IMG/VR virus record: IMGVR_UViG_3300037041_000775
Location: 1 to 58,610 of that record
Length of the DNA: 58,610 bases
Reading direction: 5' to 3' (one strand)
DNA from: a virus
The position numbers and the translations under genes are program-made. Shown piece after piece: positions 1,125-54,733 of the stretch. The notes beneath the pieces were generated by a model. The model was not told where the DNA came from. It ran no database searches and was given only the letters and a program-made list of their open reading frames with translations. Position 1 is the first letter of the stretch; every line of letters starts with the position of its first letter.

Positions 1125-1676
1125 ATGCTCACTCGCCGTTTCCGTCCTTCCGCGTACTACGGCGATGCCGGGGGCTCTGGCGCGACCCGCTCCGGCACTG
1201 ACGAGTGGACGATCCAGCACGGCAACGAAGTCTGGATCGATGACGCGGGCTACGTCTTCCTCATCTTCGCCACGACGGGGCCGAAGGATCCGCGCGTGCA
1301 GATCCTCTATCGGCCCGACGGAACGCAGCCGTCGAAGGTCTACTTCGCGAACGATCCGGCGCTTTCGCGCGTCGTGGACGCGCTGCGGACGAAGGGTCGG
1401 AAGGCAACGCAGGCGGAACTCGACGGCTACAAGGCGTTGGCGAGCACGCCGCGCGCTGCGGCCCCGACGGCGTTCACGGCGTCGATCCCCGCTATGCCGA
1501 CGGTGACGGGTACGGCTTCGGCGCAGCAGCCAGTGAAGCAGAAGGGGCGCTGGGTCAAGAAGCGCACGCCCTTCTACAAGCAGACGTGGTTTCCGTTCGC
1601 CGTAGGCGGCGTGGCGCTGGTGCTGCTGGTTAGCGTCGGGCTTGTCGTCCGTTCGGGACGTAGGGGGGTTGCATGA
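1125..1676 (+). CDS. Predicted virion-type membrane protein with RFRPSAY N-terminus
   Basis: 183 aa. It starts MLTRRFRPSAYYG, the first copy of an F-x-P-S-[AS]-Y peptide that recurs near the start of several proteins in this block. A small beta-rich domain follows (residues 25-100; DEWTIQHGNEVWIDDAGYVFLIF), then an Ala/Pro/Thr linker, a basic patch (KQKGRWVKKRTPFYKQ), one C-terminal membrane helix (about 155-175) and a short basic tail. The layout of N-terminal peptide, soluble domain and tail anchor matches its neighbours. Its stop overlaps the next ATG (ATGA). The specific function is unknown. Confidence 0.85.
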   Translation: MLTRRFRPSAYYGDAGGSGATRSGTDEWTIQHGNEVWIDDAGYVFLIFATTGPKDPRVQILYRPDGTQPSKVYFANDPALSRVVDALRTKGRKATQAELDGYKALASTPRAAAPTAFTASIPAMPTVTGTASAQQPVKQKGRWVKKRTPFYKQTWFPFAVGGVALVLLVSVGLVVRSGRRGVA

Positions 1677-2326
1677 GGCCGTCGAACTTCAACTACGTCG
1701 ATTCGTGGCAGACCTTGCTCGGAGGCCGGATGCTCGGGCATCACATCGCGTATCGCCCCAGCCGTCGCCCCAGCGACTACGGCGATCTCGGCGGACTGAG
1801 CGACTACTTCGTCACTTCGACGGGCGAAGTCTTCGAGGCATCCCCGCTGTCGGGGCTCCCCGGCTGGCGGCACGCGACGGTCTACTACGTCGCGAAGACG
1901 AGGAAGCGGTACCCCGACGGCATCGCGATCTTCGATAAGGCGCGAGCGGATCAGCTTTCGGCGCTCATCATCGGGTCATATTCCAGCTTGGAAGACGCGA
2001 TCAAGCGGGCCGACGCGGCGCTGGCGTCGCGGCAAGCGTCCACGCTGCCGACGACGACGCCCACTGCGCCGAAGTTTGTCGCTGCGACGGGGCAGGAACT
2101 CATCGCCGCGCAGCAAGCGGCGGAAGCCGCGCGTCTCGCTGCCGCGACGGGCACCGCGCCCGCAACGGGTGGCGAGCCGCCGAAGAAGAAGAAGCCGCCG
2201 CCGAAGCGGCGGAAGAAGATCCCGACGTGGGCATGGGTCGCGGGGGGCGTCGGGCTCGCCGTGCTGCTGCTCGGTGGGACGGCGTTTGTAGTGTCGCGCC
2301 GTCGTCGCGCGCTCACGGGGGCATGA
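1673..2326 (+). CDS. Predicted tail-anchored membrane protein with Lys/Arg collar
   Basis: 217 aa; ATG overlaps the upstream stop. The early segment AYRPSRRPSDYGDLGG resembles the shared F-x-P-S-x-Y peptide in looser form. A compact domain follows (FVTSTGEVFEASPLSG ... GSYSSLEDAIKRADAA) and contains the G-x-Y-x-S-x3-A-x3-A pattern seen in other proteins here. Then come an Ala/Thr linker, a strongly basic stretch (PKKKKPPPKRRKKI), one membrane helix (about 187-207) and an RRRR tail. Basic residues on both sides of the helix fit an anchor that contacts DNA or the lipid surface. No family recognised. Confidence 0.85.
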   Translation: MRPSNFNYVDSWQTLLGGRMLGHHIAYRPSRRPSDYGDLGGLSDYFVTSTGEVFEASPLSGLPGWRHATVYYVAKTRKRYPDGIAIFDKARADQLSALIIGSYSSLEDAIKRADAALASRQASTLPTTTPTAPKFVAATGQELIAAQQAAEAARLAAATGTAPATGGEPPKKKKPPPKRRKKIPTWAWVAGGVGLAVLLLGGTAFVVSRRRRALTGA

Positions 2327-3135
2327 TGGACAAGCTGAACGTCGGTGGCATCCTCGCGCCGCGCGTCGATCTCGACAGCGCGCAGACGTACCACCTTCCT
2401 GAGTGGTCGGATATGGGCGACCCGAAGCGGATCGCCGTGCTCCGCAAGATTGCACTGGAGGCGGGGCGCGACCCGCGCATCGCGACCGTGGCGATCCAGA
2501 TCATCCGCACGGCGGGCGTGAAGCCCCGCGACTACACGGGACAGGCGCAGGCACTGCTGAAGTTCGTGCAGAACCGCATCTACTATGCGAACGAGCCGGG
2601 AGAGCGCCTTCAAGATCCGGCGTACACCATTCGCGTCGGCTACGGCGACTGCGACGATATGGCCCTGCTGCTGGCGGCGTTTTGTGAAAGCATCCGGCTT
2701 CCGTGGCGCTTCGTCATCAGCGGGAAGCGCGGCAACCGCATCGTCCGGTGGGTCGAAGGCACGCCGTACACCCCGGCGAAGTGGGCGCATATCTACCTCG
2801 CCATCGGAGACAAGCCGTTCGCGCCGTCCCGCTGGCGGTTCGCGGAGCCGACGCTGCGGAGCGTCAACCTCGGATGGGACGTGGTGCAGGCGTCGGCGGG
2901 CGGTTCCCGTCCGCTGCCGGAACTCAGCGGCCCCGACACCGCGACGCTGACGGCGACGCAGGAGATCGCGAAGGCGGCAGACAAGGACGCGCTCACCATC
3001 GAAGGCGTCATCAGCGACGTGCGGAAGTCCCTGACCCCGCGTCGCATCGTCGTCGGCCTTATCGTCGGCGGCATCACGGGCCTTCTGACCCGCCCGATCC
3101 TTGACGCGCTGCTCCACCGCCGAAAGCGCCGATAG
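2323..3135 (+). CDS. Transglutaminase-like cysteine peptidase-fold protein, membrane-anchored
   Basis: 270 aa; ATG at 2323 overlaps the upstream stop. The core looks like a transglutaminase-like domain. The nucleophile motif is GYGDCDDMALLLAAFC (Cys near residue 112), the histidine sits in KWAHIYLAIG, and an acidic third position lies in FAEPT (Glu where the family more often has Asp). The C-terminal third has a linker, one membrane helix (RIVVGLIVGGITGLL) and a basic tail RRKRR. Such domains act as peptidases, amidases or cross-linking enzymes. In this structural block, processing or cross-linking of virion proteins, or attack on the wall at entry, are the plausible jobs. Confidence 0.8.
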   Translation: MMDKLNVGGILAPRVDLDSAQTYHLPEWSDMGDPKRIAVLRKIALEAGRDPRIATVAIQIIRTAGVKPRDYTGQAQALLKFVQNRIYYANEPGERLQDPAYTIRVGYGDCDDMALLLAAFCESIRLPWRFVISGKRGNRIVRWVEGTPYTPAKWAHIYLAIGDKPFAPSRWRFAEPTLRSVNLGWDVVQASAGGSRPLPELSGPDTATLTATQEIAKAADKDALTIEGVISDVRKSLTPRRIVVGLIVGGITGLLTRPILDALLHRRKRR

Positions 3136-3224
3136 CCCTCCGCGTTGCGGACCTCCGTGCGCGGAGCGGGCAGCTTGCATAGCCTCTTCCTCCACCCCCT
3201 CAACTTCTTCTTCGGAGTACCATC

Positions 3225-3647
3225 ATGGCCGTCATCAACGCCACCAAGGTCAGCGCGACCACCAACGAGTTGACCTACACCTTCACCGGTACTGGTGCCG
3301 ACACCGGCACCATTTCCTACGCGACGCTCGTTGCGGACGCCCTCACCGGGACCGCCGGGACCAGCACCCTGAAGACGGTGCTCACCTCCCTCGCGGGCCA
3401 GTGCGACAGCAACGCCAAGGCCATCAGCGCGCTCATCACGGGCGAGCAGTTCACGGGCGCGGGCGTGGGCACTCCGGCCCTCACCACGAACATCGAGGTC
3501 AATCTCGTCTCTTCGACGGGGACCGCGATCCCCTCCGTGACCGCCGCCGACGACGGCGCGACCAACAACCCGCAGATCACCTTCGCGACGGCGGGCGTGG
3601 GCCAGTGCTGGCTCTACATCAAGCGCGTCCACTCCATCGTGCTGTGA
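3225..3647 (+). CDS. Small beta-rich candidate virion protein
   Basis: 140 aa, rich in Thr, Ala, Gly and Val, with alternating strand-like segments (NELTYTFTGTG, TNIEVNLVSSTG, GQCWLYIKRVHSIVL). It has no membrane helix and few charged residues. ATG follows a GGAG. It has its own 89-bp leader and a hairpin terminator downstream, so it may be separately expressed at high level. Composition fits a capsid, decoration or spike-base protein; no family recognised. Confidence 0.8.
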   Translation: MAVINATKVSATTNELTYTFTGTGADTGTISYATLVADALTGTAGTSTLKTVLTSLAGQCDSNAKAISALITGEQFTGAGVGTPALTTNIEVNLVSSTGTAIPSVTAADDGATNNPQITFATAGVGQCWLYIKRVHSIVL

Positions 3648-3678
3648 CCCGCTCGGGGTGAATAGCCCCGATGCCACG

Positions 3679-3711
3679 ACGCCCCGGTGAGCCCCGCGCT
3701 CGCCGGGGCGT
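3679..3711 (+). terminator. Hairpin terminator after 3225-3647 gene
   Basis: Arms of 13 bp (one G-U pair), 3679-3691 and 3699-3711, with a 7-nt loop, followed by TCGTGTTTG. It sits 32 bp after the stop codon. The T-tract is short, so termination may be partial. Confidence 0.55.
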
Positions 3712-3763
3712 TCGTGTTTGACGGCTGGCAGGGCTGTGCTTATGGGTACGGCGCGGAGGCCAA

Positions 3764-4132
3764 ATGGGCGCAGCGGGGATTGAGATCGACGCTTGGATCA
3801 ACCGGGAGACGGTCGAGCGCGCACACGCTCGGGCTCAGGACGCGCAGCATCGGCGGCATCAGCACGTCGCGGACACCGGGATGCGGGCCGCGCGTGCCCG
3901 CGACGCGAAGCTGCTTCGCTGCTTGGAGAAGGCGGCAGAAGTCCTGACGCAGATGCAGGAGGAACAGGTAGGCCGCACCCGTCGCACGGCGTCCCGCTAC
4001 GCCGACACGGTCGAACTGACCGAAGTCGCTCTGTGGCGCAAAGCCTACGAGTTCGCGGACAAGGGCGAGCCGCTGCGCCAGTTGGAGTGGATCTACGGTG
4101 CCGCCGCCGTGCTCGCGGGGTTTGTCGCCTAA
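3764..4132 (+). CDS. Hypothetical helical protein
   Basis: 122 aa; GGAGG is 4 nt before the ATG at 3764. It is almost entirely helical and charged, with an Arg/His/Gln-rich first half (ETVERAHARAQDAQHRRHQH) and a central amphipathic segment (LLRCLEKAAEVLTQMQEEQ). There is a mildly hydrophobic C-terminus (YGAAAVLAGFVA) but no clear membrane helix. No family recognised. It may be an internal or assembly protein of the virion block. Confidence 0.75.
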   Translation: MGAAGIEIDAWINRETVERAHARAQDAQHRRHQHVADTGMRAARARDAKLLRCLEKAAEVLTQMQEEQVGRTRRTASRYADTVELTEVALWRKAYEFADKGEPLRQLEWIYGAAAVLAGFVA

Positions 4133-4218
4133 GCACTCCGATGGCACTCCGCACGGGGGGTCCACCGTTGCCCCATGCTCCGCGCATCGGTAGGGTTAGC
4201 CGGAAGCACGGAGTAGCG

Positions 4219-5118
4219 ATGTTCGGCATGTACGGTTTCTACGGCGATGCCGTGTCCGATCTGAAGGGTCAGGTCAAGGCCCAGCAGCAGAAGATCAAGG
4301 ATGCGCGCAAGGCTGCGCGCAAGGCCAAGATTTTCACGGCGGCGCGTCGTCAGGCCGAGCTTGCTGTCCGCAAGGCTATCATCGACCTTCGTCTGCTCCG
4401 CTCCAAGCTGCGACAGGCCGAGCGCGAAGCCCGCAAGGCGAAGAAGGGTGGCAAGGCCGCTCCCGCCGCGACGCCCGCTGTCTCGACGGCCGGTGGCACG
4501 CTCACGAAGGAACACATCGCTGCGATCACCGCGCTGATCCAGCAGCTTACCGCGCAGGGCGCGGATGCCGATGCCGCCGAGGAAGAGGCGAAGGCCCGCG
4601 TCCTTCCCCCCGCGCTGCTCGCGGCGGTTCCCCGTGGCTTCTTCCGTGGCGTGCGTCGCGCTGGACCCCGTCCGGTCCTTCCGCCGTTCCGTCCGCCGGT
4701 CTACCGCCCGATGCCGGGGGAACTTCCCGGCCCGACGCGCGACATCGATCCCCGCGTGTTCCAGCGTGACATCGATCCGCGCGTCTTCGCGCGCCCCGTC
4801 GATCCCCGCGTCCGTCAGCGCCCCATCGATCCGTTCACTCCGACGATGCCGCTCATCCCGCAGGCCGGTTCGTTCACGTTCCCGCCGGGGAACCTCTCGC
4901 TCACCGATCCGTCGCTCGCCGCCGAGGTTGAGGCCGACGAGGGCGACGATATGAGCGGGATCGTGGACACCGTGAAGGAGTACGCGGCGAAGCCGTGGTT
5001 CCTCGCCCTCGCGGGCATCGGTGCGCTCATGTATTTCCGTCGCGGGAAGAAGGGTGCGACGCCGAAGTCGAACCCCCGCCGTCGCCGCAGCCGCCGCAAC
5101 CGCCGCAATCGCCGCTAA
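4219..5118 (+). CDS. Coiled-coil, tail-anchored virion-type protein with IDPRVF repeats
   Basis: 299 aa, start chosen at MFGMYGFYGDA; the upstream in-frame extension overlaps the previous gene and has shadow-like composition. Order: Tyr/Gly N-terminal peptide; Lys/Ala-rich coiled coil (about 15-90); Pro-rich region with four tandem copies of an (R)DIDPRVFQ-like unit (about 173-203); hydrophobic anchor (KPWFLALAGIGALMYF, near 270); and a tail KSNPRRRRSRRNRRNRR. The tail is typical of this block. A DNA- or lipid-contacting structural protein is likely, but the exact role is unknown. Confidence 0.85.
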   Translation: MFGMYGFYGDAVSDLKGQVKAQQQKIKDARKAARKAKIFTAARRQAELAVRKAIIDLRLLRSKLRQAEREARKAKKGGKAAPAATPAVSTAGGTLTKEHIAAITALIQQLTAQGADADAAEEEAKARVLPPALLAAVPRGFFRGVRRAGPRPVLPPFRPPVYRPMPGELPGPTRDIDPRVFQRDIDPRVFARPVDPRVRQRPIDPFTPTMPLIPQAGSFTFPPGNLSLTDPSLAAEVEADEGDDMSGIVDTVKEYAAKPWFLALAGIGALMYFRRGKKGATPKSNPRRRRSRRNRRNRR

Positions 5119-5127
5119 GGAGCACCC

Positions 5128-5394
5128 GTGTTCTCGACGGCGGCACTACTTCCGCTCGTCGCGCGGCTCGGGGAGTTCCTTCGCAGCGCGGGTGAGCACG
5201 CCAAGCGCGCAGTCGCTTCGGGGGCCGTCGTGGCTCCCGATGTGATCGCTGCCGCCATTGAGCGCGAAATGACGGGGTGGAACCCCGTCATCGGTGGGCG
5301 TGAAGTCCTCGACACGGAAACGCGCCGTGCAGCGGCGCGCTTTCTCGCGGGCGTTGCGCTGAACGTGGTAGTTGGCAAGAAGGAGAAGGCGTGA
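5128..5394 (+). CDS. Hypothetical small protein
   Basis: 88 aa, GTG start with AAGGAG 6 nt upstream. It is amphipathic and helical; the segment VAPDVIAAAIEREMTGWNPVIGG is the most distinctive part. There is a weak hydrophobic C-terminal stretch (FLAGVALNVVVG) before KKEKA, too short for a confident membrane call. Its stop overlaps the next start. No family recognised. Confidence 0.75.
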   Translation: MFSTAALLPLVARLGEFLRSAGEHAKRAVASGAVVAPDVIAAAIEREMTGWNPVIGGREVLDTETRRAAARFLAGVALNVVVGKKEKA

Positions 5395-6311
5395 TGTACG
5401 GCAACGACCCTGAGTACCTGTCGGCATCGCCCACAGTGATGGCCTACGACTACCAGAACGGCGACTACTTCGCCCCGGCGGTCTATGGTCAGCAGACGGC
5501 CGCGCAGGCGAACGCCGCAGCGGTCAGGGCCGTCGGCCCCACGGGCATGGAGATCGCCCAGCCCGCGCCGCTCGTCGCGCATCCGGTCCCCGGCTACCCG
5601 AAGGTCGGACATACGCCGACTTTCGACATGCCGATGAACAAGGGCGATTGGAACATCAAGGGCGTGAACATGCCCACCTTCTCCCCGGCGCTCCCGCCGA
5701 TGCCGGGGTCCGATTGGCGCACGTTCCCGCAGCCCATTGACGGTCGCCAGCTTTCGGCCGCGCGCCCGCAGTTCAGTGCCTTCGCGGGCATCGGGCAGGG
5801 CTATGGGGCCGTGGACTACGCCACCGCGAAGGCGGCGCAGTTCCGCGACGTGCAGGGCAGCGGCGGCTACGGCTACCGTCAGTTCAAGGATGGCGCGATC
5901 CAGATCCTCGTGAGCCCCAGCCGCGCGCTCCCGGTCGGATCGATGCTCACCGGCAGCACGGGCGATCCCAACTACGCCCGCTGGTTTGCGATCACCAACG
6001 AGATCGGAGCGTGGAAGACGTTCGCGCAGGCTCGCGCCGCGCAGACGCTTCGCACCCTCACTGATACGGCGACTGCGCTGTCGTCGTCCGTCGCGAACGT
6101 CGCCGGGGCCGTGAAGGCGGGGAAGCGCAAGCGCCGGAAGGCCGCAGCCGCTCAGGCGGCGTTCCCGGCGGAAACTCCCGCTGCGGCAGAGCCCGCACCC
6201 GTCGAAGCCCCCGGTTTCCTCTCCGGCCCGCTGCCGTGGATCATCGGGGGCTCGGTCGCCGTGCTGCTCATCGTTCTCGCGACGCGCGGCAGCAGCACCG
6301 CAAGCAAGTAG
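5394..6311 (+). CDS. Predicted tail-anchored virion-type protein
   Basis: 305 aa from ATG at 5394 (GTG at 5391 is an alternative). The N-terminal region is Tyr/Asn-rich and probably unstructured (MYGNDPEYLSASP, YDYQNGDYFAPAVYG). The middle has many Pro and Phe. A compact part around residues 145-200 reads GYRQFKDGAIQILVSPSRALP and GDPNYARWFAITNEIGAWK. A basic patch KAGKRKRRK precedes an Ala/Pro linker and one C-terminal membrane helix (LPWIIGGSVAVLLIVLA). No family recognised. Confidence 0.85.
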   Translation: MYGNDPEYLSASPTVMAYDYQNGDYFAPAVYGQQTAAQANAAAVRAVGPTGMEIAQPAPLVAHPVPGYPKVGHTPTFDMPMNKGDWNIKGVNMPTFSPALPPMPGSDWRTFPQPIDGRQLSAARPQFSAFAGIGQGYGAVDYATAKAAQFRDVQGSGGYGYRQFKDGAIQILVSPSRALPVGSMLTGSTGDPNYARWFAITNEIGAWKTFAQARAAQTLRTLTDTATALSSSVANVAGAVKAGKRKRRKAAAAQAAFPAETPAAAEPAPVEAPGFLSGPLPWIIGGSVAVLLIVLATRGSSTASK

Positions 6312-6322
6312 GGGAGGGAGCC

Positions 6323-6892
6323 ATGCGGTTCGTCCCCTCGGCGTATTCGGACGTAGCAGCGGTGGCCCCAGCCGCCCCTGCTACGACTGCCGCCGGTTCG
6401 ACGGCGTCGGGCATCACGGAAGCGACGCAAGTCCTTTCGCAGCTTGTCTCGTCCGGTGTGGACGTGGCTCGCGCTGCCAGCGACCTCAAAATGGCGCAGT
6501 GGCAGCAGAAAGCCGCGAAGAAACCGAAGAAGAAGCAGCAAAGGTCGCAGGCTATGCCCGCTTCGGTTGCGCTACCCGCTTCCGCGTCGGCCCCTGCGAA
6601 GCTGGCCGCACCGCCGACGGATTGGGCGAAGTGGGGGCTGATTGGCATGGGGGCGCTCGTCGTCGCCGTGCTGGGGTACGTCGTCGTCACCCGCGCGCGG
6701 GAAAGCGATGACGGGGCCGCGAAGAAGAAGAACCCGAAGCCTGTGGCCCGCGCACCGTTCATCCGAGTGCCGCCGCGTCGTCGCGCCCCAAAGGTGATCG
6801 ACATCGAGGCCGAAGAGATCGAGGCCGACGAGCCGGAGCCGGTCGAGGCCGACGAGCAGGACGCCTATGGTGACGCTGGGGAGGAAGAGTGA
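6323..6892 (+). CDS. Membrane protein with MRFVPSAY N-terminus and acidic tail
   Basis: 189 aa; GGGAGGGAG precedes the ATG. It starts MRFVPSAYSD, a second clear copy of the F-x-P-S-A-Y peptide. Then come an Ala/Thr region, a helical Gln/Lys segment (KMAQWQQKAAKKPKKKQQ), one central membrane helix (WGLIGMGALVVAVLGYVVVT), a basic stretch with RVPPRRRAPK, and a very acidic C-terminus (EEIEADEPEPVEADEQD). The acidic tail is unusual beside the Arg-rich tails of its neighbours. It could bind basic partners inside the particle. Confidence 0.85.
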   Translation: MRFVPSAYSDVAAVAPAAPATTAAGSTASGITEATQVLSQLVSSGVDVARAASDLKMAQWQQKAAKKPKKKQQRSQAMPASVALPASASAPAKLAAPPTDWAKWGLIGMGALVVAVLGYVVVTRARESDDGAAKKKNPKPVARAPFIRVPPRRRAPKVIDIEAEEIEADEPEPVEADEQDAYGDAGEEE

Positions 6893-7284
6893 TGCGCCGG
6901 TTCCATCCGAGCAGCTACGGGGCGGCGACGCCTGAGCCCGCAGCGCCCGAAGACTATACGCAGTACCTGTCGCTCGCGAAGGAGTTCATTCTTCCAAGTG
7001 ATCCGGTCGAACGGAAGGCCGTGCTGACAGCGCGGATCGCCAACTACCGGCGCATGAAGAAGAAGTTCCCGCTGGCGGCGCTCTTCTACGACAACGAGAT
7101 CGCCAAGATGCAGGCGCGTCTTTCCGCGACGGATCGGCAGATCGAGAAGTCGCAGAAAGGTGAAACGTCAGTTCAGACCTATCGCTACCTCGGTTGGACG
7201 ATTGGGACGCTTTCCGCGTTCCTGCTGGGCTCGCTGATCTGGCGCACCGTCGTGCTCACGAAGGCAGTGGGGAAGCCGCGATGA
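6892..7284 (+). CDS. Small membrane protein with RRFHPSSYG N-terminus
   Basis: 130 aa from ATG 6892 (GTG at 6889 is an alternative); it overlaps the upstream stop. It begins MRRFHPSSYGA, a third copy of the peptide. The middle is a charged helix (ERKAVLTARIANYRRMKKKF ... YDNEIAKMQARLSATDRQIEKS), possibly coiled coil. One membrane helix follows near the end (GTLSAFLLGSLIWRTVVL). It overlaps the next gene by ATGA. The role is unknown; the context suggests a virion membrane protein. Confidence 0.85.
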   Translation: MRRFHPSSYGAATPEPAAPEDYTQYLSLAKEFILPSDPVERKAVLTARIANYRRMKKKFPLAALFYDNEIAKMQARLSATDRQIEKSQKGETSVQTYRYLGWTIGTLSAFLLGSLIWRTVVLTKAVGKPR

Positions 7285-8084
7285 CTTACGGATACCACCA
7301 TGGCGTGCCGCATGGCCGCTTCGTTCCTTCGGCCTACTCGGGCTTCGGCGCGAGCGGCGAAGACGTGGCGCTCGACACTGTGCAGGCGGCGGCGAAGACG
7401 GCTGCGGGCGTCGGAGCCGGTGCGGCTGCGGCGGGGACCATCGCAGGGGGCGGGGCCGTCACGGGCCTACTCACGGCGGCGGGTGTCTCGGCGGCGGCAG
7501 TGCCCATCGTCGGCTGGGTCGTCGGTGGGGCCATCGCCGTGTCGGCGGGCATCGTCGCGCTCGTCGCAGCCGTCAAGTCGGGCAAGGTTCGTCGTGCCGA
7601 AGCCGTGGCGACGGCGCGCAAGCTGGGGATCGCGGAGCCCGAAAAGGCTCCCGGCTTCATCGTCCGCGCGCTGAAGATCCCGAAGACCCGCCGCGCGAAG
7701 CTGCTGGCCCGTCTGCGGAAGCGCATGGACCGGCTGAAGGCGCGCAAGCTGGGCAAGCCGGGGCAGAAGCGCCTTGCGAACCTGAAGTGGCAGGTGGACG
7801 TACTCGTCGCGCTCGACAAGGTCGAGAATCCGAAGAAGGCGTCGAGCGGGGACCGCAAGGCCATGCGTCTCGTCGGCGGGCAGCGCCCCGTGGTCGATCC
7901 GGTGACGGAAGCGAACAGCCCCGCTGTGGATCCCGAAGTCGAAGAGGCGGGGATGGCTGCGGCCGAGCAGAACGCTGCCCCGACGGGCTTCCAGATGCCG
8001 ACGTGGGGCTGGATCGCGCTCGCGGGTGGCGTCGGCGTCGTCATCGCGCTCGCCGCGCGTCCTTCCGCACCGAAGAGGACGTAA
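7281..8084 (+). CDS. Multi-pass membrane protein with GRFVPSAYSG N-terminus
   Basis: 267 aa. His/Gly leader, then GRFVPSAYSGFG (fourth copy of the peptide). A long Gly/Ala-rich hydrophobic region (about 45-105; GAAAAGTIAGGGAVTGLLTAAG, then PIVGWVVGGAIAVSAGIVALV) can form two membrane helices. A very basic domain follows (about 125-190; many Arg, Lys and Leu). The C-terminal end has another hydrophobic segment (TWGWIALAGGVGVVIALAA). The glycine-rich hairpin resembles membrane-perturbing or channel-type segments, which would suit a genome-delivery role; that is inference only. Confidence 0.85.
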   Translation: MTYGYHHGVPHGRFVPSAYSGFGASGEDVALDTVQAAAKTAAGVGAGAAAAGTIAGGGAVTGLLTAAGVSAAAVPIVGWVVGGAIAVSAGIVALVAAVKSGKVRRAEAVATARKLGIAEPEKAPGFIVRALKIPKTRRAKLLARLRKRMDRLKARKLGKPGQKRLANLKWQVDVLVALDKVENPKKASSGDRKAMRLVGGQRPVVDPVTEANSPAVDPEVEEAGMAAAEQNAAPTGFQMPTWGWIALAGGVGVVIALAARPSAPKRT

Positions 8085-8087
8085 GTC

Positions 8088-8831
8088 ATGGCGACGACGC
8101 TGTCGTGGAACGACGTACTCGCGGAGATCCGCGCGCAGATCGACGCGGCAGCGGCGGGCAAGCTGATCGCCAGCCCGCAGTCCGTCGTGACGAAGAACTG
8201 GTTTTGGACCGCGCCGTCGAACACGGTGTCGGCCTACGCGCTCGTTGCCTACTGGTTCGCGGTCGCCGCGCGTGTCGGCTACCCCGCGCTGCTTCAGGAG
8301 GCGCGACGCTACTACGCCGAAGCTACGAGCCGCAGCGTTCCAAGCATCGCGACGGCGGACATTCAGCGGGTGCTGGCCCGCGCCGTCACCGCGCTGGACG
8401 CGGCGGGCGGTTTGAAGGATCGTCGTCTCGCCGGGGTCTACCGGGGGCTGGGCGAGTGGTCGAAGGCCGCTTCCATCGCGAGCGCGCAGCAGCGCGCCTA
8501 TGAGCAGTCGGGCATCGGCATCGCCGCAGGCGGCATCATCGGCACGGGCGCGGACCTCATCAAGATCGGGGAGAAGGCGGGCCGCGTCATCACGGACAAG
8601 AAGCCCCCCGGTACGCCGCAGTGGCTGTGGTTCCTTCAGCGGAACGCATGGTTTCTCGTCGGCGGCACCGTCGCCGTCGGCGCGCTCTACCTCTTCCTGA
8701 AGCCGGTGCTCGCGCCCCTGACCGGCGTCCGCGACGCCGCTGCGGCAGCGTCCCGACGCGCGGCGGGCAAGGCCGTCGAGCGGATCGAGCGCGTCGCCCG
8801 CAACCCCCGCCGCCGTCGTCGGAGCCGCTGA
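8088..8831 (+). CDS. Membrane protein with NPRRRRRSR tail
   Basis: 247 aa. The N-terminal half is helical and soluble (SWNDVLAEIRAQIDAAAAGK), with an aromatic hydrophobic stretch (SAYALVAYWFAVAARVGYPALL). A Gly-rich segment (GIGIAAGGIIGTGADLIK) follows. The C-terminal membrane helix NAWFLVGGTVAVGALYLFL ends in an Ala/Arg-rich tail RVARNPRRRRRSR. The same tail type ends at least five other proteins here. The stop overlaps the next ATG. No family recognised. Confidence 0.85.
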   Translation: MATTLSWNDVLAEIRAQIDAAAAGKLIASPQSVVTKNWFWTAPSNTVSAYALVAYWFAVAARVGYPALLQEARRYYAEATSRSVPSIATADIQRVLARAVTALDAAGGLKDRRLAGVYRGLGEWSKAASIASAQQRAYEQSGIGIAAGGIIGTGADLIKIGEKAGRVITDKKPPGTPQWLWFLQRNAWFLVGGTVAVGALYLFLKPVLAPLTGVRDAAAAASRRAAGKAVERIERVARNPRRRRRSR

Positions 8832-9711: not shown

Positions 9712-11100
9712 GTGGCCCTCATTCTCCGCAACAACCCCGCCCCGCTCTCCGGTGCGCTGTTCGTCAAGAACCCGCGTCGGCGTCGGCGGAAGATGAAGAT
9801 GAACCGCAAGGCTCGTCGCAGCCTGCGCTTCTTCAACGGCATCGGTGCGGGCCTCACGGCGAACCGGAAGAACCGCAAGCGCCGTTCCAGCCGCGCGAAG
9901 AAGGGCGTGCTCGCTCGTCTCATCGCGAAGTTCCGGCGCAACCGCAGCGCGGTCAAGATGAACCGCTCGGTGAAGATGAACCGTCGTCGTCGCTCGCTTC
10001 GTCGTCTGATGATGAACCGCGCGCACGGGATGATGAAGCTGAACCGCCGTCGCCGTTCGCGCAAGAATCCGATGAAGTCCTTCCGCACCCGCAAGGGTAC
10101 GGTGTCCTTCTTCGCGAAGAAGAACCGCCGTCACCGTCGGAACCCGGAGGCTTCGGCCTCGGGCGGCTTCAACCTTCCGATCCTCGCCCCGGTGAAGTCG
10201 CTGGTGTCGAAGGTGCCGTTCATCGGGCACCCCGTCGCGCAGGCGCTCGGCTACATCGCGTTCGGCGCTGCTGCTGGCGCGACGCACTACTACGGCATGA
10301 AGGCCGTTCGCTACGTCGGCGGGATGCTTCCGGCGGGCGTGCAGGACTTCGGCCGCAAGTACGTTGCTCCGGTCGGCTACTCGCTGACCGGCGTGCTCGC
10401 CAACTTCGCGCTCCAGCGCCTCCCGGTCCCGTTCCTCTCCGACGATCAGAAGCGCAAGCTTGGCGTCGCGGCGATGATCGCGGGCGGCGTGCTTGACGTG
10501 TACCGCGCCATCAAGGGTCAGTCCTCGGATCTCGGGGACTACGACTACGGCGACGGTGGTGCCTACGACGTGGTCCCGCTCGCTGGCATTGGCGAGGGCT
10601 TCGGGGCCATCGGTGAGGGCATGGGTGCCATCGGTGAAGGCATGGGCGGCATGTACTCCGACGCGGAGCTTGCCGACGCCATGTTCTCCGGTCCCGACCT
10701 CGACAGCTACGAGGGCGAGGCCGCGCTCGCCGGTCCCCCGGCCTTCATGCGCGCCTTCCCCCCGCCGCCGAAGGTCGCCTCTCGTCGCGAAGCCGCGCAC
10801 TCCCGCCACGCGGGCCGTCGCGGTCACCGTTGGGGCTGGCTCATCAAGATGATCGGCTTCAACCGCTTCTATGAGATCGCCGCGATGCCGGAGCCGGAAG
10901 CGCGCGTTGCCCTCATCGCCGCGCTGCGGCAGGAGGCCGTCGCCGCCGCCGCCCAGCAGGCGGCTGTGAAGCAGGCCGAAGGTGTCTCGGGCATCGGCAT
11001 GGCGGGCATCGGCTTCTCCGGCATCGGAGAGGGCTTCGGCATGGTCGCTTCGGAAGGCATGGGCGAACTCGGCTTCATGGCCGCTGGTTCCGCCTACTGA
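9712..11100 (+). CDS. Protamine-like N-terminus fused to membrane protein
   Basis: 462 aa; GTG chosen because GGGAGG lies 5 nt upstream; the longer frame runs over the divergent regulator. Residues 15-160 are extremely Arg/Lys/Asn-rich, with repeated short basic units (NPRRRRRKMKMNRK, RRRRSLRR, NRRRRSRKNP, KNRRHRRNP), as in protamines and nucleoid-condensing proteins. After residue 165 there are hydrophobic Gly/Ala helices (QALGYIAFGAAAGATHYYG, KLGVAAMIAGGVLDVYRA) and repeated I-G-E-G-M/F-G units. A DNA-condensing protein tethered to an inner membrane is a good model; the function is inferred. Confidence 0.8.
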   Translation: MALILRNNPAPLSGALFVKNPRRRRRKMKMNRKARRSLRFFNGIGAGLTANRKNRKRRSSRAKKGVLARLIAKFRRNRSAVKMNRSVKMNRRRRSLRRLMMNRAHGMMKLNRRRRSRKNPMKSFRTRKGTVSFFAKKNRRHRRNPEASASGGFNLPILAPVKSLVSKVPFIGHPVAQALGYIAFGAAAGATHYYGMKAVRYVGGMLPAGVQDFGRKYVAPVGYSLTGVLANFALQRLPVPFLSDDQKRKLGVAAMIAGGVLDVYRAIKGQSSDLGDYDYGDGGAYDVVPLAGIGEGFGAIGEGMGAIGEGMGGMYSDAELADAMFSGPDLDSYEGEAALAGPPAFMRAFPPPPKVASRREAAHSRHAGRRGHRWGWLIKMIGFNRFYEIAAMPEPEARVALIAALRQEAVAAAAQQAAVKQAEGVSGIGMAGIGFSGIGEGFGMVASEGMGELGFMAAGSAY

Positions 11101-11168: not shown

Positions 11169-11867
11169 ATGTACGGCATTCCCGGCTACGCGCTCACCGC
11201 CCCCAGCGGCTCGGACATGATCCCGCAGGTTCCCTTCGATCAGCCCAAGAACCTCTTCCGGTACGGCGAGCAGAGCCTGTGGTCGTCCCAGCGTCACGCC
11301 GCTGGCGTCGCCATCGCGAACGGCACGTTCCGTCTGTTCACCACCCCGCTCGGTCAGGTCGGTCAGGGCTTCGCCACCGGCCTCACCATCGCTGAGACTT
11401 CCCTGAAGGAAGGTGGCCGTATCCCCGCTGGCGTTGCGTTCGACGCCTACGGGATCTCCTGCCTCGTGGCGACCGGCGTGACCGCGCAGGGCGCGCTCAC
11501 CATCGCGACCCCGGTGAACACGGTCGAGACGATCACCGACCTCATCAACGTCCAGAACAACGGCGTACTGACGTGGGACTTCGTCCAGACGCAGGTCGAT
11601 ATCGCCCCCCTGCACCTCATCGGCGCGGGCGGCGGTGCCTTCGGCGCGCTCTCCACGACCGCGAACAACGTGTCCGTCGGTCAGATGAACAACGGCGCGG
11701 GCTCGATCTGGATGTACCGCAAGCACCCGATCAGCCTCCCCGGTAACTCCACGTTCTCGATCCTCCTCCGCTACGGTGCCAACGCCGCTGCGGTCGGCGC
11801 GACGAACGACGTGGTCCTCAAGGTCGCCCTCTTCGGGTACTACAAGACGGCAATCGAGATCGGCTGA
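11169..11867 (+). CDS. Candidate major capsid protein 1 (beta-rich)
   Basis: 232 aa; GGAG upstream, own leader, and a strong hairpin after the stop, as expected for a highly expressed gene. It has no membrane helix and few Lys. Regular beta-strand patterns run through the sequence (AIANGTFRLFTTPLG, YGISCLVATGVT, VLTWDFVQTQVDIAPLHLIG, STFSILLRYG, DVVLKVALFGYYKTAIEIG). Size and pattern would fit a single jelly-roll capsid protein of the kind used in pairs by P23-77/SH1-like viruses, but I see no sequence signature proving it. It sits at the centre of the structural block. Confidence 0.6.
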   Translation: MYGIPGYALTAPSGSDMIPQVPFDQPKNLFRYGEQSLWSSQRHAAGVAIANGTFRLFTTPLGQVGQGFATGLTIAETSLKEGGRIPAGVAFDAYGISCLVATGVTAQGALTIATPVNTVETITDLINVQNNGVLTWDFVQTQVDIAPLHLIGAGGGAFGALSTTANNVSVGQMNNGAGSIWMYRKHPISLPGNSTFSILLRYGANAAAVGATNDVVLKVALFGYYKTAIEIG

Positions 11868-12007: not shown

Positions 12008-12550
12008 GTGAGCGACCGTTCCGCTGTCATCGCCATGCCGACCACCGCCGATCTCGGCGGCGCGGGTCCGCAGCGTTTTGTCCGTGCGCCGTTCTACCCG
12101 ACCGCGCCGTTCTACTCGACCAACCCGAACGTCGGGTATCAGACCCGCTTCTACAGCGCGGGGCTGCTCTCCACCGACACCGACTACGCGGTGAACTCGG
12201 AGAGCATCCGTCGCGTACAGTTCGACATTCCGTGTCGGCTCATCGCCATCAACGGCTCGTCGTTCAGCGTCGGGCAGGGCAACGCCCTCCCCGTGGGCGT
12301 GTCCCCGCAGGACACGTTCCTGTTCCGGCTGGAATACACGCAGGGCGACAAGCTGCACATCAGCCAGCGCCTCGGCTCGACCGTCGTCGGCTCCGCGCAG
12401 CGCCCCGGTGAACTGGGCGGCGTCGGCTACACGATCAACCCCGGCGCGACCGTGATCCTCGGGATCACGCCGCTTCTCGCGAACCTTCGGATCGACATCA
12501 CGCTCGTCTGCTTGGAGATGCGCGGCCCGTCGAACTACACGGGGGGCTGA
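12008..12550 (+). CDS. Candidate capsid protein 2 (beta-rich)
   Basis: 180 aa, GTG start after GGAG. The N-terminal arm has repeated aromatic/Pro motifs (RFVRAPFYPTAPFYST). The body is all-beta by pattern (IRRVQFDIPCRLIAINGSS, DTFLFRLEYTQGDKLHIS, ATVILGITPLLANLRIDITLVCLEM). With the previous gene it may form a pair of small capsid proteins. It could instead be a penton, spike-base or minor capsid protein. The three following genes are spaced by 3-13 bp or lie in the same cluster. Confidence 0.6.
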   Translation: MSDRSAVIAMPTTADLGGAGPQRFVRAPFYPTAPFYSTNPNVGYQTRFYSAGLLSTDTDYAVNSESIRRVQFDIPCRLIAINGSSFSVGQGNALPVGVSPQDTFLFRLEYTQGDKLHISQRLGSTVVGSAQRPGELGGVGYTINPGATVILGITPLLANLRIDITLVCLEMRGPSNYTGG

Positions 12551-12553
12551 TCC

Positions 12554-13144
12554 ATGAGCCAGTGGTGGGAAAACCCCGGAGACTTCCCCGCGAAGTACGA
12601 CCCGTCGGGCCTTCGGAACAACCCCGCTGGCACGATCCCCTTCCCCTACCCCACGAACCCGCCTATCGGCGTGTGGGATGGGGGACGGGGCTCCCTGACG
12701 TGGGCGACGAACCTGAATGGGCTGCTGGAGGCCCGTTGGCAGTCGCCGCTCTTCGACCTTCGCCCCGAACTTCGCGCGTCCATGCAGGGGAAGACCGGTG
12801 GAACGCCGATCTGGCGCAACTCCGGCACGGGCGGGAAGCTGTGGGTCCAAGTGGACAACATCACGCTCGATCTGCCCGCGCCCGCAACGAACGATTGGAC
12901 GGCGAACCTGAAGGTCATCAGTCGCGAGTATGGGCACGTCAACGACCCGCAGGAGGTCAAGCAGATCACCGTGGACGCCGACATCACGTCGGAGTTCACG
13001 GGGTCGGCGGACGCGGCGGTGCTGACGTTCCTGCCGCCGGGAGAGGGCTACCCGATCCGGTGGTATCGAGTGGACATCGTGTTCAGCTACACGCTGGCGC
13101 GAACCTTCACGCCCCCGTTCGCCATTTCGGCGGCGTACTACTGA
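12554..13144 (+). CDS. Beta-rich candidate virion protein
   Basis: 196 aa; starts 3 bp after the previous stop. The N-terminus is Trp/Pro/Asn-rich (MSQWWENPGDFPAKYDPSG). The body shows strand patterns (KLWVQVDNITLDLPAP, EVKQITVDADITSEFTGSA, YPIRWYRVDIVFSYTLARTF) and ends in an aromatic segment. There is no membrane helix and no known family. The tight link to the capsid candidate suggests a minor capsid, penton or spike protein. Confidence 0.75.
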   Translation: MSQWWENPGDFPAKYDPSGLRNNPAGTIPFPYPTNPPIGVWDGGRGSLTWATNLNGLLEARWQSPLFDLRPELRASMQGKTGGTPIWRNSGTGGKLWVQVDNITLDLPAPATNDWTANLKVISREYGHVNDPQEVKQITVDADITSEFTGSADAAVLTFLPPGEGYPIRWYRVDIVFSYTLARTFTPPFAISAAYY

Positions 13145-13157
13145 CCGGGAGGCCCGC

Positions 13158-13535
13158 GTGGCGTTCATCAACAACAAGGGCCACGGCCACGACGACGTAG
13201 CGGCAGCAGTGTCGTTCCAGACGGAGATCATCACTCCGGCAAACGACCTGACTGTCTACACGGCGGAAGTCGGGAACCGGGGGATGCCGCGCGTCACCGT
13301 CTACCTGCGGCAGACGGCGGGCGCGGTTCCTTCGCAGGCCGTCATCGAGTTCAGCACCGCTGACCAAGTGAACAAGGTCAAGCTGTACTTCCCGGCAACG
13401 GCGGCGATCCCGACGCCGCTGAACGTGCCCGTGCTCACGACCGTGCAGATCCCGTCGAAGTTCGTCCGCGTGTCGATCACGCGGCCCGCTGGGCAGGCGA
13501 GCACCGTCGAAGTCGTCATCATGGTCGCGCAGTAG
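13158..13535 (+). CDS. Small beta-rich candidate virion protein
   Basis: 125 aa, GTG start with GGGAGG upstream. It is almost entirely beta by pattern (DLTVYTAEVG, RVTVYLRQTAG, KVKLYFPATAAI, KFVRVSITRPAG, STVEVVIMVAQ), compatible with a small beta-sandwich. It has few Lys and no Cys. It is the last gene of the capsid-like cluster. It resembles the 27951-28292 product in size and style, though not clearly in sequence. Confidence 0.75.
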   Translation: MAFINNKGHGHDDVAAAVSFQTEIITPANDLTVYTAEVGNRGMPRVTVYLRQTAGAVPSQAVIEFSTADQVNKVKLYFPATAAIPTPLNVPVLTTVQIPSKFVRVSITRPAGQASTVEVVIMVAQ

Positions 13536-15763: not shown

Positions 15764-16045
15764 ATGTACGGGTACTTCGGTTCTGCCTACGACCTCGGGT
15801 CGTCCTACGACCTCGCTTCCGCCTACGACCTTGGCGATGCCGACTACGACGGCGTCATCATGGACACGCTCAACAAGAAGGTGGTCGGTGTCCCGGTGTG
15901 GGGCCTCCTCCTCGCGGGCGCGGCCCTCATGTACACGAAGCCGGGGAAGCGCCTGCTCGGGGGCCTCGGCCTCGGCGCGGCGAAGAAGAACCCCAGCCGC
16001 CGCCGTCGGAAGAACCGCCGCAAGTCCCGCCGCTCCCGCCGCTAA
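15764..16045 (+). CDS. Tiny tail-anchored protein with SAYDLG repeats
   Basis: 93 aa; GGAG upstream. The N-terminus has three SAYDLG/SSYDLA repeats (residues 6-28), related in style to the F-x-P-S-A-Y peptides. One short membrane helix (VPVWGLLLAGAALMYT) follows. The tail is KKNPSRRRRKNRRKSRRSRR. It is the smallest clear example of the layout repeated in this block. A minor structural membrane protein is likely. Confidence 0.85.
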   Translation: MYGYFGSAYDLGSSYDLASAYDLGDADYDGVIMDTLNKKVVGVPVWGLLLAGAALMYTKPGKRLLGGLGLGAAKKNPSRRRRKNRRKSRRSRR

Positions 16046-27950: not shown

Positions 27951-28292
27951 ATGGCTATCTCCGTCAACACGTTCGATTCCGTGCGCGTGCAGATCGCGGT
28001 TCCCGGCACGTCGGTCGCGGCGTCCCCGCAGCCCTATGACAACACGCACACCCTCGTCATCTACAACCGGGGTACGAAGACCATTCTCGTCGCCATCGGC
28101 ACGGCGGGTGGGGCCATCGCCATCGGCGGCGGCGTCGAGATCCCGGCAACGGGTGCGCTCACGCTCGCCGTCGGGACGAACGTGAACCGCGCCGGGGGCA
28201 ACTTCGACCTCGGGCGGCAGATCATCGTGGACGCTGTCGGCGGTGCGGGCGATTGCGTCATCACCTACCTGAACAGCACGGGCGCGTCGTAA
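27951..28292 (+). CDS. Small beta-rich candidate virion protein
   Basis: 113 aa. All-beta by pattern (SVRVQIAVPGTSVAA, HTLVIYNRGTKTILVAIG, GALTLAVGTNVNR, GDCVITYLNSTG). It is rich in Thr, Gly and Val, with no membrane helix. It is first in a cluster of fibre/adhesin-like genes joined by overlapping stop/start codons, preceded by the only AT-rich intergenic island of the block. A spike base or decoration protein is plausible; no family recognised. Confidence 0.75.
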   Translation: MAISVNTFDSVRVQIAVPGTSVAASPQPYDNTHTLVIYNRGTKTILVAIGTAGGAIAIGGGVEIPATGALTLAVGTNVNRAGGNFDLGRQIIVDAVGGAGDCVITYLNSTGAS

Positions 28293-29422
28293 TGCTCACC
28301 CGTCCCCCATTCAGCGGCTACACCGGCATCGGCGGCGGTGGCGGGGGCGGTGGTGCGCCGACGAACGCGACCTACCTCACGCTCACGCTGGACGCGACGC
28401 TCACCGACGAGCGCGTCTTCACGCTCGCGCCGCGCCTTGCGGGGACGGACGGCGGTGCAGGGTCCACCTACACCGTGGACCTCGCCGTCGTCGGGACGGT
28501 CACTCCGGGCGCGTACACGAACGCCAGCCTGACCGTGAACGCCTACGGGCAAGTCACGGCTGTCTCCAGCGGACCCGCGCCGGTCCTCTCGGTGTCCGTA
28601 GACGCGGGCGAACTGACCGACACCGGCACGGCTACGGCTCCGGTGCTGGGCCTTGCGACGACGGGCGTCGGCGCGGGCAGCTACACCTACGCCAGCATCA
28701 CCGTGGACGCCTTCGGGCGTTTGACGGCGGCAGCGAACGGCGCGGCCCCGGTAGCGAGCGGCTGGACGGACGGCGGCACGAACGTCTACCTGACGACGCT
28801 CACCGATCAAGTGGCGATGGGGACGACGACGCCGCTCACGGGGGTCAAGCAGACGATCCAGAACGACGTGGGCGGCTCCGGCATCCTCGTCCGTGCGACG
28901 GCGGGCACGTCGGAAGCCGCGTACAACACGCGCCAGTTCGCGGACACCTTCGACCGCTTCGCGCTCCAGACGGCGGGTATTCACCTGTGGGGCTCGGGAA
29001 CGGCGGCGGCGGACGTGCGGCAGCAGCGCACGGGTACGCTCGCGTTCGCGTTCAACCACCCCACGGGAGCGACCACAATCGTGTGGACGTTCGTGGGGAC
29101 GCTCGTCACGCCGTCCCGGCGCGTGCAGACGAACACGGTCGTAGCGGCGGCGCTCAGTATCGACGCGAACCCAACGATCTACGATGTCGTGCTCTGCGAT
29201 CCCACGGCGGGCGCGCAGACGATCACGCTTCCGAACCCCGTCACGGCGGGCAACTCCGGCCGTCGCTACACGGTCAAACGGACCACGACGAGCGCGAACA
29301 CCGTGACCGTCAACTCGGCGGGCGGCGCGACGATTGACGGCCTTGCGTCGCAGGTTCTCACGGGTGGCACCCTCAACGCGATCACCGTCGTCACCGACGG
29401 CACGGCATGGTGGATCGTATGA
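28292..29422 (+). CDS. Fibre-like protein with RPPFSGY N-terminus
   Basis: 376 aa; TAATG overlap with the previous gene. The N-terminus MLTRPPFSGYTGIGG and a poly-Gly stretch are shared in form with the 52301 spike, suggesting a common virion-attachment peptide. Repeats such as YTNASLTVNAYGQVTAVSSG and YTYASITVDAFGRLTAAANG are the short fibre repeat common in phage tail fibres. The C-terminus (TVNSAGGATIDGLASQVLTGG ... TAWWIV) is a typical fibre end. Likely a receptor-binding fibre. Confidence 0.85.
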   Translation: MLTRPPFSGYTGIGGGGGGGGAPTNATYLTLTLDATLTDERVFTLAPRLAGTDGGAGSTYTVDLAVVGTVTPGAYTNASLTVNAYGQVTAVSSGPAPVLSVSVDAGELTDTGTATAPVLGLATTGVGAGSYTYASITVDAFGRLTAAANGAAPVASGWTDGGTNVYLTTLTDQVAMGTTTPLTGVKQTIQNDVGGSGILVRATAGTSEAAYNTRQFADTFDRFALQTAGIHLWGSGTAAADVRQQRTGTLAFAFNHPTGATTIVWTFVGTLVTPSRRVQTNTVVAAALSIDANPTIYDVVLCDPTAGAQTITLPNPVTAGNSGRRYTVKRTTTSANTVTVNSAGGATIDGLASQVLTGGTLNAITVVTDGTAWWIV

Positions 29423-36944: not shown

Positions 36945-36982
36945 GTCGGAGAGCAGGGCGGCGACATCGACGCAACGGAGGT

Positions 36983-37213
36983 CTACGCTGGGGTACTGTT
37001 CTCGGCGTCCTTCGTCAGCAACGCTTCCAACGTCCGCAGGGCTTCCTCGTCCGACGGGCGCTGCGGCTTCGCTTCGCCCTTCGCCCAGCGGTAGATCGTC
37101 CGCCAACTCACCCGACCGTCGAGCAGATCCGCAATCTGCATCGCGGAGTAGCCCCGATCCATCAGCGCAGACACGATCTGCTGCGCCTTCGGAAGTGTCG
37201 GTTGATCCGTCAT
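36983..37213 (-). CDS. Small HTH protein, candidate early-gene repressor
   Basis: 76 aa; ATG 37213 with AAGGAG 8-9 nt upstream. The core (AQQIVSALMDRGYSAMQIADLL, then VSWRTIYRWAKGEAKPQRPS) is a Cro/Xre-like helix-turn-helix: a short helix with AMQIADLL, and a recognition helix SWRTIYRWAKG. The C-terminus (SDEEALRTLEALLTKD) may dimerise. Its promoter contains the same palindromic operator found before several early genes, so autoregulated repression is a reasonable model. It could equally be an activator or a Cro-like switch. Confidence 0.8.
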   Translation of the reverse strand: MTDQPTLPKAQQIVSALMDRGYSAMQIADLLDGRVSWRTIYRWAKGEAKPQRPSDEEALRTLEALLTKDAENSTPA

Positions 37214-37232
37214 GGTCGTACTCCTTCGCCAC

Positions 37233-52300: not shown

Positions 52301-53635
52301 TTGATCGCACGTCCCCCGTTCAGCGGCTACTCCTTCGACACGTCGGGTGTGCTTCCCCCCGGCACGGCGGCTTCGCCGCGCATGGGGAACACCATCGTCG
52401 TGGATCAGATCAACGGCGACGATACGACGGGCGCGATCAACGGGCTCCCGTTCCAGACCGTGAACGCCGCCGTGACCTACATGGGCACGCTCGTCCTCCC
52501 GGCAGGCGGCGTGACGGTGTGGATTCTCCCCGGCACCTACACCCTGACGGCGGGCCTGACGATCCCCGACACCTGCTCACTCCGTGGCCTGTCCACGCAG
52601 ACTACGCGCATCCAGTGGGCCGCGAGCGTCCCCGGTGGCACGGCGACGCTCCTCACGATGGGCGAGAACACCCGTGTCGAAGACGTGACGCTCACGCTCA
52701 CCTCGACCAACGCGACGACGAACCTCGTGGGCGTTCGCACGCCGAACACGACGAGCAACACGTCGAAGCTGCGAACCTGTGTCGTGACCGTGAACAACGC
52801 GGGCCTCGCTGTGGGCACCAGCACGAACGTCTACGGCATCCTTGACGACGGGACGGGGACGCTCGGCCCAAGTACGTTCTCGTTCAACTTCACTCGCGCA
52901 GTCACCGTCAACGTGCTCTCCAACGGTGGGGGCGTGAAGCGCGGCGTGCTCGTGAGTGGGGCCAACGACATCACGTTCCGCGACACGAACATTTACGTCG
53001 CCGCGCCGACCGACGCGGGGTCCACCGGCTCGTACCACGGCGTCGAGACGACGAACAACGACAGCGACGCGGAGTTCCGGACCTGCTCCATCAGCGGTCC
53101 CTCGACAGCGGGCGGGTACACGGGGAGCGACATCCTCCAGACCGCCCCGACGGTCGGCGTCATCACGAACAAGGGCATCCAGTTGGGGCCGGGTGTTGAC
53201 CTCGTCAACAAAACCGCAGGTGGAAAGCCCTTCACGACCTACGTCACGCCCACGACCATCATCTACGGGTTGCAGGGAAACGTGAACGACGCGGTGCGGT
53301 ACTACTGGCCGGGGGTGCAGAACGCTGGCGATGCCACGCAGGTGTTTTACAGGTTTCAACAGAAGTCCATCGTGCAGGGCATGAGCATCAACCTGCGCGT
53401 GGCTCCCGGCGGGGCGAACAGCGTCGTCGTGACGGTGCTGAAGAGCACGACGGGTGTGGTGGGGAGCGGCGTGGCGACCGTGATGACGGCGACGGTGGCC
53501 GGGGCCAACACGTCAGCGGTGCAGTATGGCGTCAGCGTAGACTTCGCGCAGGGCGAATACCTCGCCGTGCAGACGGACGGCATCCCCGTCGCGGGAGCCG
53601 CCGCCGATATGGTGATCGAACTCGACATTTTCTGA
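52301..53635 (+). CDS. Beta-helix spike protein with RPPFSGY N-terminus
   Basis: 444 aa, TTG start with AAGGGG 5 nt upstream. N-terminus MIARPPFSGYSFDTSG parallels MLTRPPFSGYTG of the 28292 fibre. The body (GDDTTGAINGLPFQTVNAAVTYMG, ILPGTYTLTAGLTIPDTCSLRG, TRVEDVTLTLTSTNATTNLVG, GANDITFRDTNIYVA) has the period of a right-handed pectate-lyase-like beta helix. The C-terminal 120 residues form a separate beta domain (VVVTVLKSTTGVVG). It is probably a receptor-binding or polysaccharide-degrading spike. Confidence 0.85.
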   Translation: MIARPPFSGYSFDTSGVLPPGTAASPRMGNTIVVDQINGDDTTGAINGLPFQTVNAAVTYMGTLVLPAGGVTVWILPGTYTLTAGLTIPDTCSLRGLSTQTTRIQWAASVPGGTATLLTMGENTRVEDVTLTLTSTNATTNLVGVRTPNTTSNTSKLRTCVVTVNNAGLAVGTSTNVYGILDDGTGTLGPSTFSFNFTRAVTVNVLSNGGGVKRGVLVSGANDITFRDTNIYVAAPTDAGSTGSYHGVETTNNDSDAEFRTCSISGPSTAGGYTGSDILQTAPTVGVITNKGIQLGPGVDLVNKTAGGKPFTTYVTPTTIIYGLQGNVNDAVRYYWPGVQNAGDATQVFYRFQQKSIVQGMSINLRVAPGGANSVVVTVLKSTTGVVGSGVATVMTATVAGANTSAVQYGVSVDFAQGEYLAVQTDGIPVAGAAADMVIELDIF

Positions 53636-54724: not shown

Positions 54725-54733
54725 GGGAGCGGC

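Follow-up and report, generated by a model that had tools for sequence, protein, structure and literature searches.

A short N-terminal peptide common to unrelated, predicted membrane-anchored proteins of a virus and its possible role in docking to the capsid shell

Introduction

Why do several otherwise different proteins of one virus begin with nearly the same short peptide? The question is raised by the left part, a block of plus-strand genes running from position 603 to ~16 kb, of the virus record IMGVR_UViG_3300037041_000775, whose full 58,610 nucleotides (58.6 kb) are here called the window. A sequence-only reading of this DNA had pointed to the peptides RFRPSAYYG, RFVPSAYSD, RFHPSSYGA and RFVPSAYSG near the N-termini of membrane proteins and had proposed that they serve in sorting, in docking to the capsid shell or in recognition by a protease. 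The analysis reported here supports a functional tag, for which docking, as we infer, fits best.

Results

The four peptides are real and in frame, and define a motif, F-x-P-S-[AS]-Y, near the N-terminus of four plus-strand genes. The first (1125..1676, 183 amino acids, start MLTRRFRPSAYYG) carries RFRPSAYYG at residues 5-13 (1137-1163), followed by a transmembrane (TM) helix near residue 157 and a basic tail. The second (6323..6892, 189 amino acids) begins MRFVPSAYSD, with the tag at residues 2-10 (6326-6352) and a TM helix near residue 105, and the third (6892..7284, 130 amino acids from its ATG) begins MRRFHPSSYGA, with the tag at residues 3-11 (6898-6924) and a TM helix near residue 104. 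In the fourth (7281..8084, 267 amino acids, start MTYGYHHGVPHGRFVPSAYSG), RFVPSAYSG occupies residues 13-21 (7317-7343) ahead of a hydrophobic hairpin near 54-98 and a C-terminal TM helix near 241. The tag is thus N-terminal, though not invariably at the very first residues. A fifth bearer, 1673..2326 (plus strand, 217 amino acids, C-terminal TM helix and RRRR tail), for which only a looser form had been proposed, holds AYRPSRRPSDYG at residues 26-37 (1748-1783); as its relative in the related genome G001 keeps AFQPSRATGDYG at the equivalent place, this is a real, more divergent copy. All five proteins end in a predicted TM helix, and most have a short basic tail; the charges flanking the helices are mixed and give no clear topology.

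Gene starts were set by a simple caller made for this analysis, which called 73 proteins in the window. F.PS[AS]Y occurs within the first 30 residues of 4/73 of them, against a chance expectation of 0.003 and a maximum of 1 in 2,000 shuffles of the window N-termini, and has no match in the 16,535 residues of the protein bodies. The two copies of RFVPSAYS are encoded by CGG TTC GTC CCC TCG GCG TAT TCG and CGC TTC GTT CCT TCG GCC TAC TCG, respectively; as the copies use different synonymous codons, conservation acts on the peptide, and an explanation at the RNA or DNA level was rejected. An exact scan for the motif behind an ATG in all of IMG/VR returned 25 matches elsewhere, none on a TM protein, which look like chance reading frames. 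The three SAYDLG units of the protein at 15764, previously counted as a looser tag, were excluded from the motif because they lack F-x-P-S and their number is not conserved (about one unit in G001).

Seven related genomes or proviruses were recovered; relatives are few and several are only fragments. The conserved protein 11169 led to the IMG/VR records G001 (73 kb, 82% identity), G003, G004 and G005 and to G002, contig C152 of a 5.8-Mb bacterial metagenome-assembled genome, whereas the IMG/VR record G009 was reached through protein 8831. A search of 63 genomes from the order of G002 added two loci, the provirus G043 and the fragment G011. G043 is an integrated provirus of ~21 kb flanked by host genes (contig C172, L077-L078, about 1.6-22.4 kb) with an integrase, the block of capsid candidates described below and four tagged genes. 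Capsid-gene matches in whole bacterial genomes were confined to 3/63 genomes of this one order, and since 379 genomes sampled phylum-wide added none, the hosts probably belong to one order. No annotated phage searched with 11169, 12008 and 2323 matched, and none of the recovered relatives corresponded to an isolated phage. Weak (28%) 11169 matches near 9.1-10.4 kb in L015, L016 and L017, where no gene was called, were not used; the contigs of these loci carry replication genes in common with the virus family of the window.

In these relatives, where absence or random placement of the motif had been named as fatal to the idea, the motif was found at the N-terminus both of homologues and of unrelated proteins, which supports a functional tag. 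Orthologues in G001 retain it as RFRPSTYGD, RFQPSAYSD, RFHASVYSG and AFRPSGHYG. The G001 relative of 1125 (MHAPHRFRPSTYGD) shares 38-44% identity with it, and that of 6323 (MRFQPSAYSDVAAVAP) is identical at 15/16 of the first residues as compared with 37% overall; relatives of 6892 carry MMRRFHASVYSG (G001) and MPAFQASEYSYGA (G043), and those of 7281 AFRPSGHYG (G001) and MAFLPSPYSE (G005). The forms MRFNPSPYS, MAFLPSPYS, MTTFFRPSAHS and FQPSAQS were found in G005, MLNFQPSPYS in G004, and MTHRRFQPSYGAYG together with looser ones in G002; for four of the tagged G005 and G004 proteins (13766, 11233, 18748 and 17454), the other genomes gave no convincing homologue. Four consecutive genes of G043 carry FQPSEQSYAG, FIPSEQSYSG, FQPSPASYGA and FQASEYSYGA, a longer variant, F-x-[PA]-S-x-x-S-Y, whose copies again differ in their codons. 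G009 has only a degenerate MKFTPHGRSTYG. In G003, several of its own proteins have a different common start, RNFG[SQ], which may be a dialect of this tag; it is present on at least four small, mostly TM proteins (L023:5-445, 1299-1661, 18545-18748 and 18757-19053).

Outside the window, F-x-P-S-x(1-4)-[YH] occurs at 11 N-termini, against about 0.5 expected from shuffles and 0.66 from the density in protein bodies. Seven matches are left once homologues of the tagged window proteins are removed (shuffle mean 0.48, maximum 5; Poisson p = 6e-6 versus body density), all 7/7 with a predicted TM helix; removal was by BLASTP, which remote kinship between tagged proteins may escape. The gap of 1-4 residues was widened after the relatives had been inspected; the fixed-spacing form derived from the window, F.PS.[YH], gave 7 matches in G001, G005 and G004 against about 0.1 expected. 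A C-terminal TM helix is predicted in 17/18 bearers of the N-terminal motif versus 113/460 (Fisher p = 1.5e-9, an optimistic value because homologues were counted separately). Among non-homologous proteins, tag forms are more alike within a genome than between genomes (permutation p = 0.04), which is no more than suggestive of genome-specific forms common to unrelated proteins. One case shows the tag inside a protein: the G005 homologue of 6892 (L032:12975-13766) apparently joins a homologue of window 53653-54057 to one of 6892-7284, and in it a long N-terminal extension related to 53653 precedes the tag, still recognizable as FRASVLSDYG at the junction.

A second, related start, overlooked in the sequence-only reading, is found on proteins that resemble spikes or fibres. 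RPPFSGY occupies residues 4-10 of both a fibre-like protein (28292..29422, plus strand; tag MLTRPPFSGYTG at 28301-28321; weak tail-fibre PHROG match, 2.8e-7) and a spike-like protein (52301..53635, plus strand; tag MIARPPFSGYSF at 52310-52330; weak tail PHROG match, 1.6e-4), which have no other significant similarity. The tag of 52301 is retained in G001 and shortened to PPFSGL in G002. A PPFSG start was also seen on spike- or fibre-like proteins at L007:9565-9927, L006:5809-7134, L034:4778-6436 and L038:14569-15765 that are otherwise unrelated. The expression R-x-x-[PF]-S-[AGS]-Y spans both kinds of tag, with six N-terminal matches in the window and 0 in the bodies; as it was composed after both tags were known, the idea that inner and outer proteins dock at one common site is no more than a lead.

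The tagged genes sit just upstream of a conserved block of plus-strand genes, 11169, 12008, 12554 and 13158, whose products are capsid candidates. Protein 11169 (11169..11867), a candidate major capsid protein, is conserved at 51-82% identity in five relatives and also occurs in proviruses. Protein 12008 (12008..12550), a second conserved candidate and a possible receptor of the tag, is modelled as an eight-stranded, jelly-roll-like beta sandwich; viral capsid proteins with a jelly roll are over-represented among its Foldseek matches, which are of low confidence, with query-normalised TM-scores below 0.5. PDB sequence searches with 11169 and 12008 gave nothing convincing. Two further candidate components are 12554 (12554..13144), present in every relative that covers the region, and the small conserved 13158 (13158..13535). 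As observations apart, the 9712-11100 family has conserved C-terminal ends (AGSAY, AGSAF or YAGAGY) and those of the 12554-13144 family read A-x-[YL]-Y or nearly so.

As to the kind of virus, Caudoviricetes are recognized by a large terminase, a portal, an HK97-fold capsid protein and tail proteins. This set was not found among the matches listed, which do include weak tail-fibre PHROG matches. No match to phrog_2, which we take to be the large terminase, was obtained in six records, and terminase, portal and HK97 families are absent from the 25 of 26 Pfam families listed; a phrog_15528 match that would have meant a portal was traced to a Nudix domain. Lytic transglycosylases occur in relatives, that of G002 with a C-terminal TM helix. 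The many proteins with a C-terminal TM helix suggest an internal lipid membrane, and a tailless virion with such a membrane is the likeliest type, and a reasonably probable one. No LPxTG-like motif common to the region before the TM helices was found; models of the sortase/CTERM type gave mostly sub-threshold matches to the TM helix and basic tail, and one G005 protein scored above the LPXTG_anchor cut-off. Very basic tails of the NPRRRR type, often behind a C-terminal hydrophobic segment, were observed at 4219-5118, 8088-8831, 15764-16045 and 54065-55429.

Three other features of the window may be recorded. On the minus strand, 37668-40376 fuses a uracil-DNA glycosylase domain to a family A DNA polymerase (Pfam UDG, DNA_pol_A_exo1, DNA_pol_A), and 34518-37232 joins DNA methylase and SMC/AAA ATPase domains in a single reading frame, the ATPase being called as a separate gene in G001 (L007:2996-4756). 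The 1922-residue protein at 16147-21915 has no Pfam match, and two internal YDN...RVDxGA stretches are kinase-like by eye only.

Discussion

We read the tag as a short linear docking peptide that would fix membrane-anchored proteins to the capsid shell, and put the probability of this reading at about one half. The C-terminal TM helix would anchor each tagged protein in the virion membrane, while the flexible N-terminal F-x-P-S-x(1-4)-[YH] would reach into a cleft of the shell, which would most likely lie where copies of the conserved, putatively beta-sandwich capsid proteins (11169, 12008, 12554 or 13158) meet. If the tag fits such a cleft, one site in the shell could hold a set of unrelated proteins. 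Three steps here are ones that we infer: binding by the tag, a capsid protein as its partner, and a membrane beneath a tailless shell. A broader proposal, put forward tentatively, is that one family of tailless viruses and proviruses with a membrane, infecting a single bacterial order, uses one N-terminal address code to plug changing, unrelated inner membrane proteins into a co-evolving capsid site, with the dialects F-x-P-S-x-Y, F-x-P-S-x-x-S-Y and possibly R-N-F-G-[SQ], and with the related RPPFSGY adding outer spikes.

Several observations weigh against docking to the shell. The window proteins 2323, 5394, 8088 and 15764 are C-terminally anchored yet untagged, so that the tag must be dispensable for some anchored proteins. 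An unbiased pairwise comparison of N-termini lay only slightly above shuffles overall, although motif pairs ranked top, and its place was taken by the motif-specific and held-out tests. The loose F.PS alone, with homologues removed, is modestly enriched (11 versus 3.7, p = 0.0016), and the spacing to the tyrosine differs between lineages. The capsid models are weak: the AlphaFold2 model of 11169, with a predicted local distance difference test (pLDDT) score of 44, is too poor for assignment of a fold, and that of 12008 reaches a pLDDT of 62. Finally, no packaging ATPase of the FtsK/HerA type (PF01580, PF01935) was found above cut-off in six, possibly incomplete, records, in contrast to the known tailless membrane phages.

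The same sequence facts would be expected if the tag were a sorting signal during morphogenesis, by which a viral scaffold or membrane-patch organizer gathers the tagged proteins with no lasting contact. Such a signal could also be internal, as in the G005 fusion, and a conserved, coiled-coil-rich protein of 572-905 amino acids encoded upstream of the block is a possible organizer. Yet the capsid proteins are as well supported as any candidate receptor, and RPPFSGY on spike-like proteins points to contact within the finished particle; we consider an assembly signal of this kind not very probable.

Reading of the tag by a host factor, for instance for membrane insertion or polar placement, would agree with the restriction of capsid-gene matches to a single order. 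It seems improbable, as the form of the tag differs between G002 and G043, which share the same host order, and a fixed receptor would disfavour this; in addition, none of the host proteins called next to the G043 provirus was seen to carry the tag.

The sequence-only reading had also named the protein at 2323 as a candidate processor or cross-linker of the tag. Its transglutaminase-like domain is genuine: this untagged protein of 270 amino acids (2323..3135, plus strand, C-terminal TM helix) matches Pfam Transglut_core (PF01841) at 1.6e-8 (35.2 bits versus a cut-off of 23), GDCDD and HIY are invariant in seven aligned members of its family, as are C110 and H156, and with this core domain and the conserved Cys and His it belongs to the transglutaminase-like superfamily, while a PDB sequence search gave nothing convincing. 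As it is untagged and the tag contains no conserved Gln or Lys for cross-linking, gene neighbourhood is its sole tie to the tag, the conserved gene adjoining the tagged ones; that it processes or cross-links tagged proteins is possible. A role of the tag as a processing or cross-linking site for this or another viral protease is nevertheless quite doubtful: cleavage at residues 2-13, or more narrowly at 2-5, would take off hardly any of the protein, and the motif is kept when internal in the G005 fusion, so that a protease site is disfavoured.

Functionless N-termini might have spread by recombination or duplication, since neighbours in an operon could swap ends and some members are orthologous. 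This is very unlikely, as the peptide is kept across copies whose codons have drifted apart, the 6323 pair is far more alike in the tag region than overall, and the tag occurs on proteins for which the other genomes yielded no detectable homologue. Chance or composition bias (Pro, Ser, Ala, Tyr; GC-rich genome), to which the high A, P and S content of the proteins and the 25 IMG/VR matches lacking a TM helix might point, is negligible given the composition-preserving shuffles and the repetition of the effect in held-out genomes.

How internal-membrane viruses select the many small membrane proteins beneath their icosahedral shell and put them in place is poorly understood. If docking by the tag is correct, a portable peptide whose copies in a genome change together would provide a simple assembly rule, would make virion proteins that escape annotation recognizable by sequence and could be used directly to attach cargo to a capsid. 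The findings also point to a virus family without counterpart among the isolated phages searched.

Among known viruses, the Halopanivirales (P23-77, HCIV-1, SNJ1) are tailless, with an internal membrane and two single jelly-roll capsid proteins. The viruses studied here are similar in their adjacent capsid-candidate genes, many small TM proteins and the lytic transglycosylase of relatives, and differ in contig sizes of 39-105 kb (about 21 kb for the G043 provirus) and in that the FtsK/HerA-type ATPase was not found; of the two-jelly-roll trait, only 12008 is jelly-roll-like, at low confidence, with 11169 having no assigned fold. In PR772/PRD1, the vertex of the capsid is joined to the internal membrane through P16, a small TM protein (PMC6750898). 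Unlike the proteins described here, with their C-terminal helix, P16 has its TM segment at residues 7-28; no sequence match to the vertex proteins P16 and P30 was found, and the parts of the published account consulted describe no peptide common to the PRD1 anchors.

Two precedents show such peptides in clefts between the subunits of an oligomeric shell protein. One is the leader of the Bacillus exosporium (BclA, F-Anchor; ExsF/BxpB), where one N-terminal Pro/aromatic peptide sends different proteins to one shell protein and fits into a cleft of the ExsF trimer, as seen in crystals (PMC11952670). That leader is longer (NCBIfam TIGR03720) and belongs to a spore coat, and its model matched no tagged protein, with no hit at E <= 1 for ten proteins. 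The tail of the adenovirus fibre, FNPVYPY, binds in the cleft between penton-base monomers (PMC8156859). The fibre is a single, external family devoid of a TM helix, whereas the tag described here sits on several TM proteins of a bacterial virus that are unrelated to one another. No sequence homology is claimed; the likeness lies in a short Phe/Pro/Tyr peptide with which an accessory virion protein begins.

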